A stretch of DNA of 48,114 bases. It comes from Candidatus Moraniibacteriota bacterium (GTDB lineage Bacteria > Patescibacteriota > Minisyncoccia > Moranbacterales > UBA11712). The position numbers and the translations under genes are program-made. Shown piece by piece: positions 1 through 26,468 of this stretch (positions are counted from its first letter, which is position 1; each line of letters begins with the position of its first letter). A model generated the notes under the pieces. It was not told where the DNA came from, searched no databases, and saw nothing but the letters and a program-made list of their open reading frames with translations. Location of the stretch: the NCBI GenBank assembly GCA_028695025.1, contig JAQVJV010000005.1:1-48114 (forward strand), given 5' to 3'.

Positions 1-127
1 GTTTCTCTTGGCTCGAAAAATGCCGAAGGCTTTGGAAGAACTGTGAACGAAAACTCAATTCAAGTTTGCAAATGATAGTTTTGTGTTTCGTGAGAGTATT
101 GTTAAAAAGATATTGAACAGTTACTAA
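1..127 (+). mobile_element. 3' end of an IS5/IS4-type insertion sequence (truncated by window edge)
   Basis: The stretch holds a transposase C-terminus and then a terminal inverted repeat. AAAAGATATTGAACAGTTAC (105-124), followed by TAA, is the exact reverse complement of the sequence at 47989-48011 near the right edge. The transposase stop codon lies inside the repeat. The element therefore ends at about 124-127 and has inserted into the gene that follows. The target duplication cannot be checked because the other side of the element is outside the window. Confidence 0.85.
3..116 (+). CDS. IS5/IS4-family transposase, C-terminal fragment
   Basis: Frame 3 reads FSWLEKCRRLWKNCERKL and continues to LLKRY before a TGA at 114-116. 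This is the usual C-terminus of IS5-group DDE transposases, where an ERxFxWL..CRRL motif lies just after the catalytic Glu region. Only about 37 residues are inside the window. The other two frames stop early and do not resemble the family. It belongs to the same element type as the transposase start at 48066. Confidence 0.8.
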   Translation, partial: FSWLEKCRRLWKNCERKLNSSLQMIVLCFVRVLLKRY

Positions 128-3110
128 ATGGTATAAATTTGGATCAATTGATGTTCAGCTTAGTTCTGGCGTTTCGCAGACTATCGCTGGAGCCAATTTT
201 AATTTTCAGGCAGAAATAAAAAACGAAAATGATTTGCCGATTGTTGATGGAAATTTGTATTTGAAATTATTCAAACGGCAGGAGCAATTAGCTGATGGAA
301 GTGTGAATTATTTTGAACAAATCCCTCCTGAAGAGTTGAGAAATAATGCTGACTATTTGATGGATCAATGGGATGCTGCTGAAAATATCAATCTTGATGG
401 GAAAGCGGTTGAGAAGAAGGATTTATCTTATCATCTGTCAAATTATCTTCCTGACGGCGAATATTATATTGTTCCATTTTTCCAATCGGCTCATAAATTC
501 AATTATCTGGGCCTTCCTTTTACCAATGATGTGACTGGAAGCGCATTGAGGTTTACGCTGAAAAACAGTCAGGCGGAGGGAAGCGTTCTTTTTGATATTA
601 ATTCGGTAAAGGTAAATGGCGACCTTTATAATTTTGTGGGATTTATCAAGAGTTATTCGGAAGATGAGGATGTTGTCTTGAATGCCCCGTTAAAAAATAC
701 CACTGGCAAAGCGCAAGATGTAAAGATAACCTGGAATACCTATTATTGGGACAATATGAGAAAAGAAAACCGGATTGATAATCGTAGCGAAAGCGTACAA
801 CTCGCGCCGGGTGAAACGAAAAATCTTGAGTACAAAGTGAAAAAGAACAGTTACCCGGTGAATTATGTGGTGGTGACTGCTGATCAAAATGGAGCAAAGT
901 CTGTTTTGGATATACGTTTTGCGAGGAATACCAAGGAGTTGGTCAGGATAAATTCCCAAGGACTCGACAAATTCCCGTTGCAGAAAGGCGAGGATAGCAC
1001 GATTTATTTGACAGCTCATGCGGTCAAGCAAAATGAAAGTCCTTATGTTCAGTTGCCGGATAAAGATGGCAATTTCTCTGAACAAGATTCTGAACAACTT
1101 CAGAAGGAGTGGGAAAGCAAGCAGGAAAGGTATGCCATACATACAGCTTTGTCGGACGAAGCCGGAAATGTTATTCAAGAGAGTGATTACAGCGGAATTA
1201 TCACCGGTGATGTTATGGGATTTGAACAAAATTTCAAGCCAGATCAGGCTTATAATTATGTTGTGCTGACAACCGAAATAAAAAATAATGAGGGAGAAAT
1301 TATTGATCAAAATGCCACAATCTTTGACTGTTCAAAAATAAACTCCATAAAATGTTCCGCCAATACTGCTCAAAATATCTGGATCGATAAAATAGTCAAA
1401 AGTGTTTTCTTTCTTGCGCTGATCATGTTGCTTGGGGGCTTAGGGCATTACGCCTACAAGAAAAAGAAAAATAATCCCAGTGCTTTTATGCTGGCACTTC
1501 TAATAATATCAGCGGGATTGCTTTTTTGCGGCAGTGCTGATGTCGCGCAAGCGAAAAGCGTGGCGGTTTCTCAGCCGTATGTTCCTTCGCTGGCTTATCT
1601 TTGGGGCGTAACAGGGGGCAAGGCCTGGGCGCCGGTGGGAAATATTTCAGGCACGGTGAAATACTCCTCCACTTCGACTGCAGGTGATGCATATCGCAAT
1701 GTCAGTCCAGGAGACGTGTTCTGGATCGAGGATTCCACGCATACGGATTCAAATTCAATAAGCTGGTATATGACCGGGTTGAGTGGTGATACCCCTCCTG
1801 GTTTCTGGAGGGCTGGAGCAAGCGGAGATAGTTTGCCATATTATCGCTTGCCCTATACTCCAAACCCGTCAAATACGTCCGATGTCGACGTGACCCAATC
1901 CTTGAATCCTCCGGATATCACAATTTCAACCTCTGGCCCCGTGAGTTGCGTCCAAGACGGATATCTTAAATGGCGCTGTACTGTATTGGAAGGTGGCGGT
2001 GAAATCAGTATCAATGTGCGTTATGGATCAACGTATGGTTATTACTATTATAAAAGTAGTGTCACTTGGGATCCGTGTTCATTAGGCGGGCCAGACTGCA
2101 GTGGATCTGGTGATGGTTATGCATGTGTATATCAGTATTGCGAGACTACAGAGACTAATTCCGGTAAACTTCAGTCGAAAATAAGACCAAGTAGAAACTT
2201 CGTGTTTTATTATTCTGGAGGCTGTGATTATTTGTGTACCGCGACTGGCTGTTCCATTCCGGCTACTCGATCATTAGGAGGGCCTAACAGAGGAAGAGGG
2301 GTTTCGTGTGCGGGTGATTATACCATCAATATCCCCGGTCAAGTTATAAATTATCGATATAATGCTGGTCCGGCCAATACCCCGCCAACTTCTCCCCATT
2401 GCATCAATTGCCCGGGCACCCTTAATGTGAATACGGATGGAACGTTTACTATCGGAGGTTCGACTGATGCCGAAGGAGATCAAATAATATATCAAATCGA
2501 ATGGGATCCGGCAGGTGCCCCGGGTTTATACGAGGATAGCAATTCCGGACCGGCAAGCGGCTTTCAATATGCCACTCTCCATCAGTGGATAACTTCGGGC
2601 TTGAAGAGTTTCCGCTTTAGGGCGATTGAAGCCTTGAATCCTTCGAATGCTTCGGCTTGGGTGGATGGAAGTGTAGCTATCTTGGAAATACCTGTCGATG
2701 GTGCCTGTAAAACTCCCCCAAATAATAGTGATTCGTTTTGTCCCGGCGATATTCCAAATCCAGGAACTATGGATGCCGGCGAATTATGTAATTCCTATGA
2801 TCCGGCTAATCCCCCTTCGGTTTCGGGGACTTGGAATTGGACTTGTTCCGGCCAATACGGAGGTTCTTCTGCGAATTGCCGGGCAATCCAGGCTGCATCC
2901 GTTGTGGCAGCTTGCGGATCGGACGTCAATTTCTGCACAGACAACACTTCGAATCCTTGTGTTGCCGGAAATATCTTCAGCGGGTTTTCCAATGAGAATG
3001 CTTATAGTGTCACTTGGACCTGTACGGGAAGGTGCCCCACAACTTCTGTTTCCTGCACTGCTCCCGGCAAAAAAAGTTGCGGTTGGATTGAGACGAATCC
3101 GAGCAACTAA
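117..3110 (+). CDS. Large Cys-rich surface protein, 5'-truncated by IS insertion
   Basis: The frame is open from directly after the transposase stop (117) with no plausible ATG start; the first start-type codon is a TTG at 234. The true N-terminus is therefore probably on the far side of the IS. Using the 958-residue numbering from the TTG: residues 1-380 look like beta-sandwich extracellular modules, ~387-408 is a membrane helix, then KKKKNN, then a second hydrophobic helix ending in DVAQA (~440), which looks like an internal signal peptide with a signal peptidase site. The rest is Ser/Gly/Cys-rich with two Cys modules (DGACKTPPNN..., AACGSDVNFC...). It ends in SCGWIETNPSN, a tail shared with the protein at 24100. 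Probably cell-surface; specific function unknown. A strong terminator follows. Confidence 0.75.
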   Translation, partial: TVTKWYKFGSIDVQLSSGVSQTIAGANFNFQAEIKNENDLPIVDGNLYLKLFKRQEQLADGSVNYFEQIPPEELRNNADYLMDQWDAAENINLDGKAVEKKDLSYHLSNYLPDGEYYIVPFFQSAHKFNYLGLPFTNDVTGSALRFTLKNSQAEGSVLFDINSVKVNGDLYNFVGFIKSYSEDEDVVLNAPLKNTTGKAQDVKITWNTYYWDNMRKENRIDNRSESVQLAPGETKNLEYKVKKNSYPVNYVVVTADQNGAKSVLDIRFARNTKELVRINSQGLDKFPLQKGEDSTIYLTAHAVKQNESPYVQLPDKDGNFSEQDSEQLQKEWESKQERYAIHTALSDEAGNVIQESDYSGIITGDVMGFEQNFKPDQAYNYVVLTTEIKNNEGEIIDQNATIFDCSKINSIKCSANTAQNIWIDKIVKSVFFLALIMLLGGLGHYAYKKKKNNPSAFMLALLIISAGLLFCGSADVAQAKSVAVSQPYVPSLAYLWGVTGGKAWAPVGNISGTVKYSSTSTAGDAYRNVSPGDVFWIEDSTHTDSNSISWYMTGLSGDTPPGFWRAGASGDSLPYYRLPYTPNPSNTSDVDVTQSLNPPDITISTSGPVSCVQDGYLKWRCTVLEGGGEISINVRYGSTYGYYYYKSSVTWDPCSLGGPDCSGSGDGYACVYQYCETTETNSGKLQSKIRPSRNFVFYYSGGCDYLCTATGCSIPATRSLGGPNRGRGVSCAGDYTINIPGQVINYRYNAGPANTPPTSPHCINCPGTLNVNTDGTFTIGGSTDAEGDQIIYQIEWDPAGAPGLYEDSNSGPASGFQYATLHQWITSGLKSFRFRAIEALNPSNASAWVDGSVAILEIPVDGACKTPPNNSDSFCPGDIPNPGTMDAGELCNSYDPANPPSVSGTWNWTCSGQYGGSSANCRAIQAASVVAACGSDVNFCTDNTSNPCVAGNIFSGFSNENAYSVTWTCTGRCPTTSVSCTAPGKKSCGWIETNPSN

Positions 3111-23496: not shown

Positions 23497-24021
23497 TTAA
23501 CAAGTATAATACAAAAGCAAGCTGGCGATGATGATAGGGAGGATGGCAAAAACGATTTTTTGTCCCTGGAAAAAAGATTTTCCGTCGTTTTTCTTCCTGG
23601 TGAAGACGTGAATGAATGTGCCAAGAGCAAGCAATAGGCTTCCGAGCGTAATCCCAAAAAGCAATTTGTCGATGCCGCAAATCTGGTGGAAGGGATGTCC
23701 GATTTTTCCTTTGAGCCAAAGGGGAATAAGGATAATGGCATAATAGGCGGCAAAGACGGCGATTTTTCGGCCTTTGAAGCGGATATTTTTCTTGTCGAGC
23801 CAAGTGATGGTCCAAACCGACATGGAAACGATGAGGGCCCCGATCCAAAGTCCGGAAATGGAATCGTCAATTCCCAGCCATTCGGCAAGCCCGAGCCCCG
23901 CACCGACTGCCACAGTGCAAACAGGACAAACAGCGAAAACTTGCTTGGCGGAAAAAACGAAAGATGCTATAATTATAAATAATATCTTTGTCATTGTTTT
24001 TTTGTCTGAATTGATCTTCAT
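23497..24021 (-). CDS. Integral membrane protein with CPVC motif
   Basis: 174 residues. The N-terminus is a hydrophobic signal-like segment (KILFIIIASFVFSAKQVFA) followed at once by VCPVCTVAVGAGLGLAEWLGIDD, then three to four more membrane helices. The CPVC could be redox-active or bind metal. An alternative start is the Met ten codons in (23994). I have no secure function. Transcribed divergently from the surface protein at 24100, sharing a promoter region. Confidence 0.8.
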   Translation of the reverse strand: MKINSDKKTMTKILFIIIASFVFSAKQVFAVCPVCTVAVGAGLGLAEWLGIDDSISGLWIGALIVSMSVWTITWLDKKNIRFKGRKIAVFAAYYAIILIPLWLKGKIGHPFHQICGIDKLLFGITLGSLLLALGTFIHVFTRKKNDGKSFFQGQKIVFAILPIIIASLLLYYTC

Positions 24022-24099: not shown

Positions 24100-25065
24100 A
24101 TGAAAAAAACAAAACTCAAAAAATTTTCTCAAAAGAGTACGAAGATATTTTTTTCTGTCGCGCTTTTTATTTTGGTTTTTGGAATGGCAAGCGTGGTGAA
24201 GATCCAGGCGGGCAGTTCTGACAGTGTGACTGGTTGGCTATGGGGAGGAACTGATGATGGTGTCGGCAATACGACCAACGTCGGCTGGATCAGCGCGAAT
24301 AGCACGAACACTGGCGCGCCTGTTTCCTATGGGATCAATGTCCCATCAAGCGATGGAAATGTCAGCGGTTATGCCTGGAGCGAAAACATTGGCTGGATAA
24401 GCTTTAATTCCAGTGATTTGACAGGGTGCCCTTTAGGAACATGCAACGCTAGAAGGGAGGGGGATTATCTTAAAGGCTGGGCAAGGATAATTGGTATCAA
24501 AACCGAGCTGGTTGCGGGAAATTCTGGTGGCTGGGAAGGTTGGATAAGCTTGGATGACAAAAACGGCACCAATAAATACGGGATCCAAATAAGCAAAATG
24601 TTGGGAGTGGGAAGCGGAAGCCACACCTATGCGTGGTCTGATGAGCTCGGCTGGATCGATTTTGGCCAAGCGAAAGTGAAAAATTGTCCGGCGATTTCCT
24701 GCGCGACAAGGCAAGTATGTTCAGGAAGCAGTTTTTCAAGCTGTGACTCCACGTTTTGTAGCCGTCCGTCCGGGGATACGGATGTTTCTTGTTCGCCAAG
24801 CGGGACTTCCTGGACCTGCGACAACGGATGCGGGACTACTATCAATTGTTCTGCAAGTCTCCTGTCAGATGTGGACGGAGCTTGCGGAGATTGGAACGGA
24901 TGCAGTAATCCAACCGGTGATTATTGCTCTTCCGGAACGAGAAGTAATTTGGCTGAAAATAACTACGAATCCAGCTGGGATTGCGAAGGGCAGTGTGGTG
25001 GCACGGATGTTCATTGCTCGGCCAACGGTCTCAAATCCTGCGGCTGGATCGAAACAAATCCATAG
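24100..25065 (+). CDS. Secreted surface protein with GWISF repeats
   Basis: 321 residues. Signal peptide (~20-45). Then repeated units around the word GWIS: VGWISANS, YAWSENIGWISFNSS, GWEGWISLDD, YAWSDELGWIDF. These are typical of CPR surface proteins. The C-terminal half is Cys-rich (VCSGSSFSSCDSTFC..., DVDGACGDWNGCSNPTGDYC) and resembles the Cys modules of the truncated protein at 117-3110. The end SCGWIETNP is shared with that protein. Confidence 0.8.
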   Translation: MKKTKLKKFSQKSTKIFFSVALFILVFGMASVVKIQAGSSDSVTGWLWGGTDDGVGNTTNVGWISANSTNTGAPVSYGINVPSSDGNVSGYAWSENIGWISFNSSDLTGCPLGTCNARREGDYLKGWARIIGIKTELVAGNSGGWEGWISLDDKNGTNKYGIQISKMLGVGSGSHTYAWSDELGWIDFGQAKVKNCPAISCATRQVCSGSSFSSCDSTFCSRPSGDTDVSCSPSGTSWTCDNGCGTTINCSASLLSDVDGACGDWNGCSNPTGDYCSSGTRSNLAENNYESSWDCEGQCGGTDVHCSANGLKSCGWIETNP

Positions 25066-25106: not shown

Positions 25107-25892
25107 ATGAAGAAAATCATTTACTGGTTCTCTGTAGTTGTAGTGGGAATCGCTCTCGGTCTCGCGCTCCAATTCGCGCGGGCTTGGACTGAACCGGTTG
25201 CCACGCCTCCCGGCGGAAATCTGGGAGCGCCGATAAACACGGGAGGCACAACGCAAACCAAATCGGGGGACATTTGCACGACTTATGGGGGAACGACAAA
25301 GTGTTTGAGCAGTTCCGGCGGAGGTTCTCCAAGTGTAAGTATGTGTGTGTGTAGATTAGTTTATTCATATGTATCATGCGGTAATGGGTGGTATACGGAA
25401 GTTCAGAAAAATTGCGGGGAAGGATGGGAAAGTGCCATGACCTTTGGTTTTGCTTCAAACGAATTTCCAAATTGCGCCTGGCAGAATAGCAATATATATT
25501 TCCCTTGCGATGATGATATTTCGCATATTAGTTCAGATTTTCTCTATGAAGGGGATCATAATGCGAGCGCTTGCACGGATGAAGGCGGAGTGGTTGAAGT
25601 TTTAGACGGCGAGAGGGTTTGTCATTTCACGTATAGTTCTCCGAAGTCGGGTTGCCCCAGCGGATGGACAAGATATGGGGATTGGTCGGCAACCAGTAGC
25701 GATTCGGTTTCATGTTCAAGTTGCACGTCCTGCACTGTCACCGGATCACATTCCTGGGGGGATACGCCGGTGGAAAGTTGTGAATATAGTGTACCAACGA
25801 TTAGTGGTAGTGGCATTTCATGTTCATGGGGTTCATGGGCGACAACGACTACTCTTTGCTTGAAGAAGTTAACGGAAGCAGCTTGCTATTAG
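25107..25892 (+). CDS. Secreted Cys-rich surface protein
   Basis: 261 residues. Signal peptide MKKIIYWFSVVVVGIALGLA followed by FARAWTEPVATPPGGNLGAPINTGG, a start I associate with pilin-like or surface proteins of Parcubacteria. The rest is rich in Cys, Ser and Gly (SMCVCRLVYSYVSCGNG, VSCSSCTSCTVTG). Function unknown. It lies 41 bases after the GWISF protein and is probably exported with it. Confidence 0.75.
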   Translation: MKKIIYWFSVVVVGIALGLALQFARAWTEPVATPPGGNLGAPINTGGTTQTKSGDICTTYGGTTKCLSSSGGGSPSVSMCVCRLVYSYVSCGNGWYTEVQKNCGEGWESAMTFGFASNEFPNCAWQNSNIYFPCDDDISHISSDFLYEGDHNASACTDEGGVVEVLDGERVCHFTYSSPKSGCPSGWTRYGDWSATSSDSVSCSSCTSCTVTGSHSWGDTPVESCEYSVPTISGSGISCSWGSWATTTTLCLKKLTEAACY

Positions 25893-25919: not shown

Positions 25920-26468
25920 ATGCAGGAACAAAACATGAAAAAAATATTATGGGGCGTTTCGGCGGTTCTAATGATTCTTGTCGCGGTGATAATTTTCCAG
26001 CAAATGACGCTGTTGAAACTGAAAAAAAACTTCCAGCAAGTCTTTCCCGACATGGACGACGCGGAAAACGTATCTTCTCCGGAGGACGGGACATCTGGTC
26101 AGATAGGGCCGGATGGCTATGATATTGCTGAACCAAGCGAAGTGAAAACTGTGAGAAATAATATTATAAACCAGACCAATATTATAAAAGGAGTGATAAC
26201 AAAAAAGGAAGGAGATGCCCTTTGGGTTGAGGCTGATGTGGTTGATTTGCGAAATCTGGCGAAAGGCGATCTTTCCCCGGAAGGCATGAAGAATCTGCCG
26301 ACTGTGAAAAAGACTTTTGAAGTGGCAATCAACGGCAAGACGGAATTTGAATCAATAACCAAAGATGAATTGGCAAAAGATATGAAAGTTGGGGTGTTTG
26401 CGGAAGAACTTGTTTATAAAGTTGAAAAGTTAACAGCCTTGAAAATCGGCAAATCCGACGAAGAATGA
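25920..26468 (+). CDS. Membrane-anchored hypothetical protein
   Basis: 182 residues. The Met at codon 6 (25935) gives a cleaner start for the membrane anchor (MKKILWGVSAVLMILVAVIIF). An acidic linker (~45-75) is followed by a beta-rich domain (NIIKGVITKKEGDALWVEADVVDL...KTFEVAINGKTEFESITKDEL). Not recognised. Likely the last gene of the surface-protein run. Confidence 0.7.
   Translation: MQEQNMKKILWGVSAVLMILVAVIIFQQMTLLKLKKNFQQVFPDMDDAENVSSPEDGTSGQIGPDGYDIAEPSEVKTVRNNIINQTNIIKGVITKKEGDALWVEADVVDLRNLAKGDLSPEGMKNLPTVKKTFEVAINGKTEFESITKDELAKDMKVGVFAEELVYKVEKLTALKIGKSDEE

Follow-up and report, generated by a model that had tools for sequence, protein, structure and literature searches.

A conserved extreme C-terminal tag on exported proteins of Moranbacteria and other CPR bacteria, and its likeness to the tails of type IV pilus-tip adhesins

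In published models of Myxococcus PilY1.3 and PilY1.1, the C-terminal eight residues form a strand added to the sheet of PilX (PMC11046646), and the same added-strand arrangement is described for four complexes in PMC13190605. The latter paper cites a 2026 preprint in which strand complementation in tip initiation complexes acts as an assembly licence for type IV filaments generally. In Nanosynbacter lyticus TM7x, PilX2 is a pilus-associated protein that has an RCC1 propeller, lacks a PilD-type signal and is needed for host binding (PMC12206443).

When PilY1 proteins of Pseudomonadota were inspected, the pattern W-x-[E/Q]-[V/I/L/Y/F] was found within the last 14 residues of 18 of 29 tails, against 0.03 expected from the interiors of the same proteins; GRISWRELTQ, GRIAWREVDWDH, TGQLSWHELVAP and SWHELVAP are examples. 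Here we describe a C-terminal tag of related appearance, starting from two proteins in the window, by which we mean the whole stretch of 48,114 nucleotides that was analysed.

Two tagged proteins and their neighbours in the window

A sequence-only reading of the window had claimed that two different Cys-rich proteins share the ending SCGWIETNP, and examination of both C-termini bore this out. One of them is encoded on the plus strand at 24100-25065. Translation and a hydropathy test describe it as an exported protein of 321 amino acids composed of a Sec-type N-terminus, GYAWSENIGWISF-type repeats, a Cys-rich module and the tag. Its N-terminal signal segment (MKKTKLKKFSQKSTKIFFSVALFILVFGMASVVKIQA) spans 24100-24210 and is by the hydropathy test a Sec signal peptide rather than a prepilin leader. 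The Cys-rich module occupies 24775-25062 and includes the tag CGWIETNP at 25039-25062 (core WIETNP, 25045-25062); the protein ends LKSCGWIETNP, with the stop codon TAG directly after it at 25063-25065. Pfam and NCBIfam profile searches with this protein returned no family, and its AlphaFold2 model, with a mean pLDDT of 38, was too poor for use. The loose pattern W-x-E-[V/T/I/A]-x-P-stop matched once in the window against 0.01 expected.

The second tagged protein lies on the plus strand at the contig start. The sequence-only reading had placed it at 117-3110, and its ending was right; its start was not, because position 117 is merely where the frame opens after a stop and the earliest possible start is a TTG at 234. 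We thus annotate it as 234-3110, with at least 958 amino acids. Since the contig begins just upstream of this frame, the N-terminus is missing and export of this protein cannot be judged directly; carriers of the same layout at four other loci (L129, L133, L173 and L212) open with a signal-type segment in the hydropathy test. Region 1-234 offers no plausible start or signal peptide; at this end of the contig the first gene is truncated or frame-shifted in its 5' part. The frame closes with KKSCGWIETNPSN, in which two extra residues, SN, follow CGWIETNP (tag and extra residues, 3078-3107; stop codon, 3108-3110). Its Cys-rich C-terminal module (2817-3101) is 48-49% identical to that of the first protein over about 90 amino acids, and the remainder of the two proteins differs. 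A Pfam search with the second protein gave no match to the PilY1 or DUF6701 domain.

In the middle of the second protein, two membrane-spanning-like segments form a transmembrane hairpin at approximately 1377-1530 on the plus strand, which is common to about 10 other carriers; internal membrane-spanning segments were counted in ten or eleven carriers, this one included. Such a mid-protein pair marks a sub-family comprising 234-3110 and carriers at L106, L124, L129, L133, L166, L173 and L212. In this sub-family both halves of the protein should thus be outside, with the tag on a membrane-held protein.

Immediately downstream of the first tagged gene, 25107-25892 (plus strand) encodes an exported protein without the tag, with a predicted mature start of WTEPVATPPGGNLGAPINTG, whose family is found no more than 5 genes away from a tagged gene in 17 loci. 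Members of this family, also seen at L174 and other loci, share the predicted mature start W-[TV]-E-P...PP.GN..AP[IL]N.G...Q.K, so that W-x-E at the mature N-terminus mirrors the tag. A small membrane protein at 25920-26468 (plus strand) is the third member of a recurring set, and the same set of tagged gene, WxEP gene and small membrane protein is repeated on contig 29 of genome G006. On the minus strand, 23497-24021 encodes a membrane protein with a CPVC motif near its N-terminus; in five genomes of the same family it adjoins tagged genes, and in one other genome the distance is six genes. It might have a thiol-related role towards the Cys-rich carriers.

Definition, spread and carriers of the tag

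Ends in SCGWIETNP occur only twice in the 0.98-Mb genome, and a backwards-pattern control gave none. A homology search with the Cys module, which was independent of the tag in that no terminal tag was required, returned relatives with the same kind of ends (KTEDWTEVAP, DSNWKEVAP, TCNWREVAP, RMIETRP and similar), indicating that WIETNP is the form taken in one lineage by W-x-E-[V/T]-x-P-stop. The commonest form is W[K/R]EVAP. The SCG prefix, which the sequence-only reading had included in the shared ending, and the Cys module do not belong to the tag, because carriers in Woesebacteria are almost devoid of Cys near it.

Across 122 genomes of the order to which the window genome belongs, that of Ca. 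Moranbacteria, the DNA pattern for W-x-E-[V/T]-x-P-stop gave 147 matches compared with 57 for the reversed pattern (the sum of the control columns). A true stop was present in 127 of the 147; among these, V follows Glu in 79 and VA precedes Pro in 46. About one third of the genomes of the order lack a match, though nearly all have PilX. Over 381 genomes drawn from the phylum there was no overall excess of the pattern, and clear single cases were seen outside the order. When 84,980 species were scanned for W[K/R]EVAP ends, 57 stretches were returned, in which long-frame matches belong to Moranbacteria, Woesebacteria, a few other CPR and two Desulfurellales/Hippea records. The remaining matches outside CPR are for the most part short chance frames, and those of the tag pattern in Clostridia, Acidobacteria, Heimdallarchaeota, Thermoplasmatota and similar groups were discarded as such. 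One contig labelled Bdellovibrionales (L138) has a CPR-type tag together with PilX and PilM genes, most likely through a binning error. The search for CPR carriers that the sequence-only reading had suggested thus finds W-x-E-[V/T]-x-P ends to be widespread in Moranbacteria and recurrent in Woesebacteria and a few other CPR. A literature search for sorting signals of Patescibacteria and for the string WKEVAP returned no matching publication.

The position of the motif was then counted over 118 loci with 1,166 predicted proteins and 377,060 residues. W-x-E-[VITA]-x-P occurred 108 times, 104 times at the last residue, once each at one and two residues before the end, and twice internally; because the pattern by which the loci had been picked included the stop, the design itself raises the terminal count, and the internal count serves as the unbiased background. 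By a crude hydropathy test, a Sec-type hydrophobic start is present in 83 of 86 complete carriers; applied to 1,050 other proteins, the test finds one in 444. After removal of the tail, the 90 distinct carriers formed 51 clusters at 50% coverage and, with a loose cut, 24. Among the domains that they carry are the adhesin-type PKD, Ig-like, TSP1, VWA and RCC1, together with Big and CARDB, besides beta-solenoid and Cys-rich types, and DUF7305 was detected in a Woesebacteria carrier group by domain search. Close to its N-terminus, one tagged protein (L195, 7906-9951) carries a Hint domain, of the intein-like, self-splicing kind (Pfam E 2e-8), which is unusual for a surface protein. The module preceding the tag is conserved within each family and unrelated between families.

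Within the tag itself, W, E and P are invariant by selection through the search pattern; at the other positions, 86 of 88 tags have V or T after E, 52 have N or G before W, and 65 have K or R after W. None of the carriers has a basic tail after the motif, and in all 90 the last 60 residues are free of hydrophobic segments. Cumulatively, a conserved extreme C-terminal tag on different exported proteins is strongly supported, and the existence of a conserved C-terminal docking or sorting tag is close to certain. Neither of the refuting outcomes named by the sequence-only reading, an internal motif in an ordinary domain or a restriction to recent paralogues, came true.

The tail was also viewed in a structural model. 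For a Woesebacteria carrier family (alignment of 11 sequences), AlphaFold2 predicted a beta-solenoid core with pLDDT of 84-96 and a tail whose last 11 residues fall below 50; WKEVAP is nearly invariant in Woesebacteria carriers despite this predicted disorder. An end that is conserved and yet predicted to be disordered has the appearance of a binding peptide. A fold search with the solenoid gave weak matches only, and the best of them, the Thermus pilin ComZ (E 0.12), is a hint only.

Pilus genes and the possible function of the tag

Several tagged genes are found among pilus genes, whose names were assigned by reading sequences. At Woesebacteria locus L118 the tagged gene is followed by pilX, pilM, pilN and pilO, thus lying within a minor-pilin operon. 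Two tagged genes precede pilM, pilN, pilO, pilB, pilT and pilC at L212, pilM adjoins a tagged gene at L189, and at L203 a PilX-like pilin is itself tagged, ending SWKEVNP. In Desulfurellales (L119), an MshQ-like protein that matches DUF6701 to the last position of the model (E 1e-117) ends VIEWKEVAP, and its gene adjoins pilB, a pilin and pilC. In the window genome, pilC is found on contigs 20 and 24 and the tagged genes on contig 1, outside a minor-pilin operon. Linkage between tag and pilC in the 41 tag-bearing genomes was not above chance: a tagged gene lies less than 10 kb from pilC only in G032 and G035, and within about 23 kb in G103. An apparent enrichment of pilM near tagged genes was dropped, as it was partly due to ftsA next to ftsZ. 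As the pilus machinery, including PilM, is universal in the order, its co-occurrence with the tag is uninformative.

PilX-like minor pilins were found in 119 of the 122 genomes of the order, some in V-W-X sets beside ligA with no PilY1 or adhesin gene. The PilY1 propeller (PF05567) was found in none of the 122, whereas the same search was positive in 32 of 120 Pseudomonadota. This makes the tagged proteins natural candidates for the missing tip adhesins of the order. Most genomes of the order also have four matches to T2SSF half-domains, i.e. two PilC proteins, which by sequence suggests two type IV pilus systems per cell. Two such systems per cell have been reported for some Saccharibacteria.

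From sequence and by analogy with PilY1, we lean towards reading the tag as a portable C-terminal docking strand for a type IV pilus-tip complex, a pilus partner that we infer. Carriers would first be exported by Sec, and the tail would keep an extended form up to the point at which it joins an open sheet edge of a PilX-like minor pilin, as an additional beta-strand, in the priming or tip complex of the pilus. The large N-terminal domains would thereby be displayed at the pilus tip, by which ultrasmall CPR cells hold on to their hosts. Bacteria that lack PilY1 would have kept a PilY1-type C-terminal plug on varied adhesin domains, giving interchangeable tips. A bolder version, that CPR use W-x-E-[V/T]-x-P as a universal portable plug loading many interchangeable adhesins onto pilus tips, uncoupled from the PilY1 propeller and the minor-pilin operon, is plausible to us, though we stop a little short of believing it.

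Against the pilus reading stand the distance of most tagged genes of the order from pilus genes, the genomes that have PilX yet no match to the tag, the internal membrane-spanning segments, which are odd for a pilus-tip protein, and the differing register of the Myxococcus strands. The scatter of carriers through the genome, mostly unlinked to pilus genes, would be expected if the tag served general retention, docking exported proteins on some other envelope partner that they share (an S-layer or cell-wall protein, for example), and if its likeness to PilY1 tails reflected convergence on a strand-pairing peptide. Carriers are many and diverse, closer to what a general surface-display tag would mark, and some have membrane hairpins; the mid-protein hairpin is easier to reconcile with envelope anchoring than with a pilus tip, except if these carriers act before pilus extension. 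We nevertheless judge this rather unlikely, in view of the tag on a PilX-like pilin (L203), the MshQ-type protein beside pilB, the pilX-pilM operon of Woesebacteria and the specificity of the PilY1 tail signature; no candidate S-layer partner was found. It is improbable that the tag is instead the substrate signal of a dedicated processing protease or transpeptidase by which the C-terminus is cut or joined to an anchor. A short, near-invariant signal at the extreme C-terminus of exported proteins would suit such an enzyme, but the carriers have neither the C-terminal hydrophobic segment (0 of 90) nor the basic tail, known sorting families are unmatched, and conservation reaches the terminal Pro, leaving nothing to cleave off. 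Nor was any protease or ligase seen to recur among the neighbours of tagged genes, contrary to the co-occurrence that the sequence-only reading had suggested looking for. Its broader proposal of a sorting, anchoring or cleavage tag is thus partly supported: the tag is borne out, and nothing speaks for cleavage or for the work of a ligase.

The motif depends on a free C-terminus, and free C-termini are what PDZ-type domains recognise, so the tag might also be a C-terminal degron or serve quality control, with a PDZ-type protease or chaperone recognising it outside the membrane. We find this highly improbable: there would be little sense in conserving a destruction tag on structural surface proteins, the carriers are a single class of adhesin-like proteins and not exported proteins at large, and no neighbouring enzyme recurs. 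That the tail is no tag but an element packed within a conserved C-terminal domain of its own protein is barely credible any longer and already largely refuted, for although the preceding module is also conserved within each family, these modules are unrelated between families and the tail is disordered in the confident solenoid model.

CPR surface proteins are mostly without annotation. Six residues by which adhesin-like proteins can be recognised in sequence alone provide a list of candidate host-contact proteins for many uncultured genomes. If the tag is a pilus-tip plug, it would explain how pili without PilY1 are capped, and modular tip exchange, if true, could underlie the host specificity of CPR episymbionts. 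The tag would also point to the W-x-E tail as a conserved functional part of PilY1 and MshQ adhesins generally.

Comparison with known systems

Short conserved C-terminal signals on otherwise different exported proteins are also a feature of LPXTG/sortase, PEP-CTERM/exosortase and type IX substrates, which differ from the tag in having longer signals (a membrane helix plus basic tail, or a beta domain). The sequence-only reading did not recognise the tag as any of these, and we agree. LPXTG sortase substrates were rejected because there is no such motif in the sequence and no C-terminal hydrophobic segment in any of the 90 carriers; PEP-CTERM/exosortase substrates, because there is no match to an NCBIfam sorting family and no C-terminal membrane helix in the same 90; and a type IX C-terminal domain, because none appears among the Pfam and NCBIfam matches listed for the window proteins and the scanned carriers, the list of one carrier scan covering its 25 commonest families. 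With no hydrophobic segment among their final 60 residues, the carriers cannot have the layout of classical sortase or exosortase substrates.

One tagged carrier resembles TM7x PilX2 in also having an RCC1 propeller domain; PilX2 differs in being described as a minor pilin with a pilin-like N-terminus (PMC12206443). With MshQ (DUF6701, PF20419) the likeness lies in the tail, as the Desulfurellales member ends in the exact CPR tag and Aeromonas MshQ ends VIYRREVLH, whereas DUF6701 is absent from the window proteins and, among the matches listed for the carriers scanned, was seen only at L119.

Like the tagged proteins, PilY1/PilC (PF05567) proteins are large Sec-exported adhesins with a variable N-terminal part and, in 18 of the 29 inspected, W-x-[E/Q]-[V/I/L] at the extreme C-terminus. 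The PilY1-type tail W-x-[E/Q]-[hydrophobic] covers W[K/R]EVAP and also WIETNP, the window version having T for the hydrophobic residue. By contrast, CPR carriers lack the propeller, their tag ends exactly in Pro and sits on many unrelated domains, and their genes are mostly outside a minor-pilin operon; membership of the tagged proteins in the PilY1 family was rejected because the defining propeller domain is absent. The Myxococcus strands end LQNVYELP and SKVLIYAP, in a register not identical to that of the CPR tag. With these differences, the closest parallel to the tag is the C-terminal strand of type IV pilus-tip adhesins, which by analogy would imply docking rather than cleavage, and the best explanation of the tagged proteins is probably that they work like PilY1.
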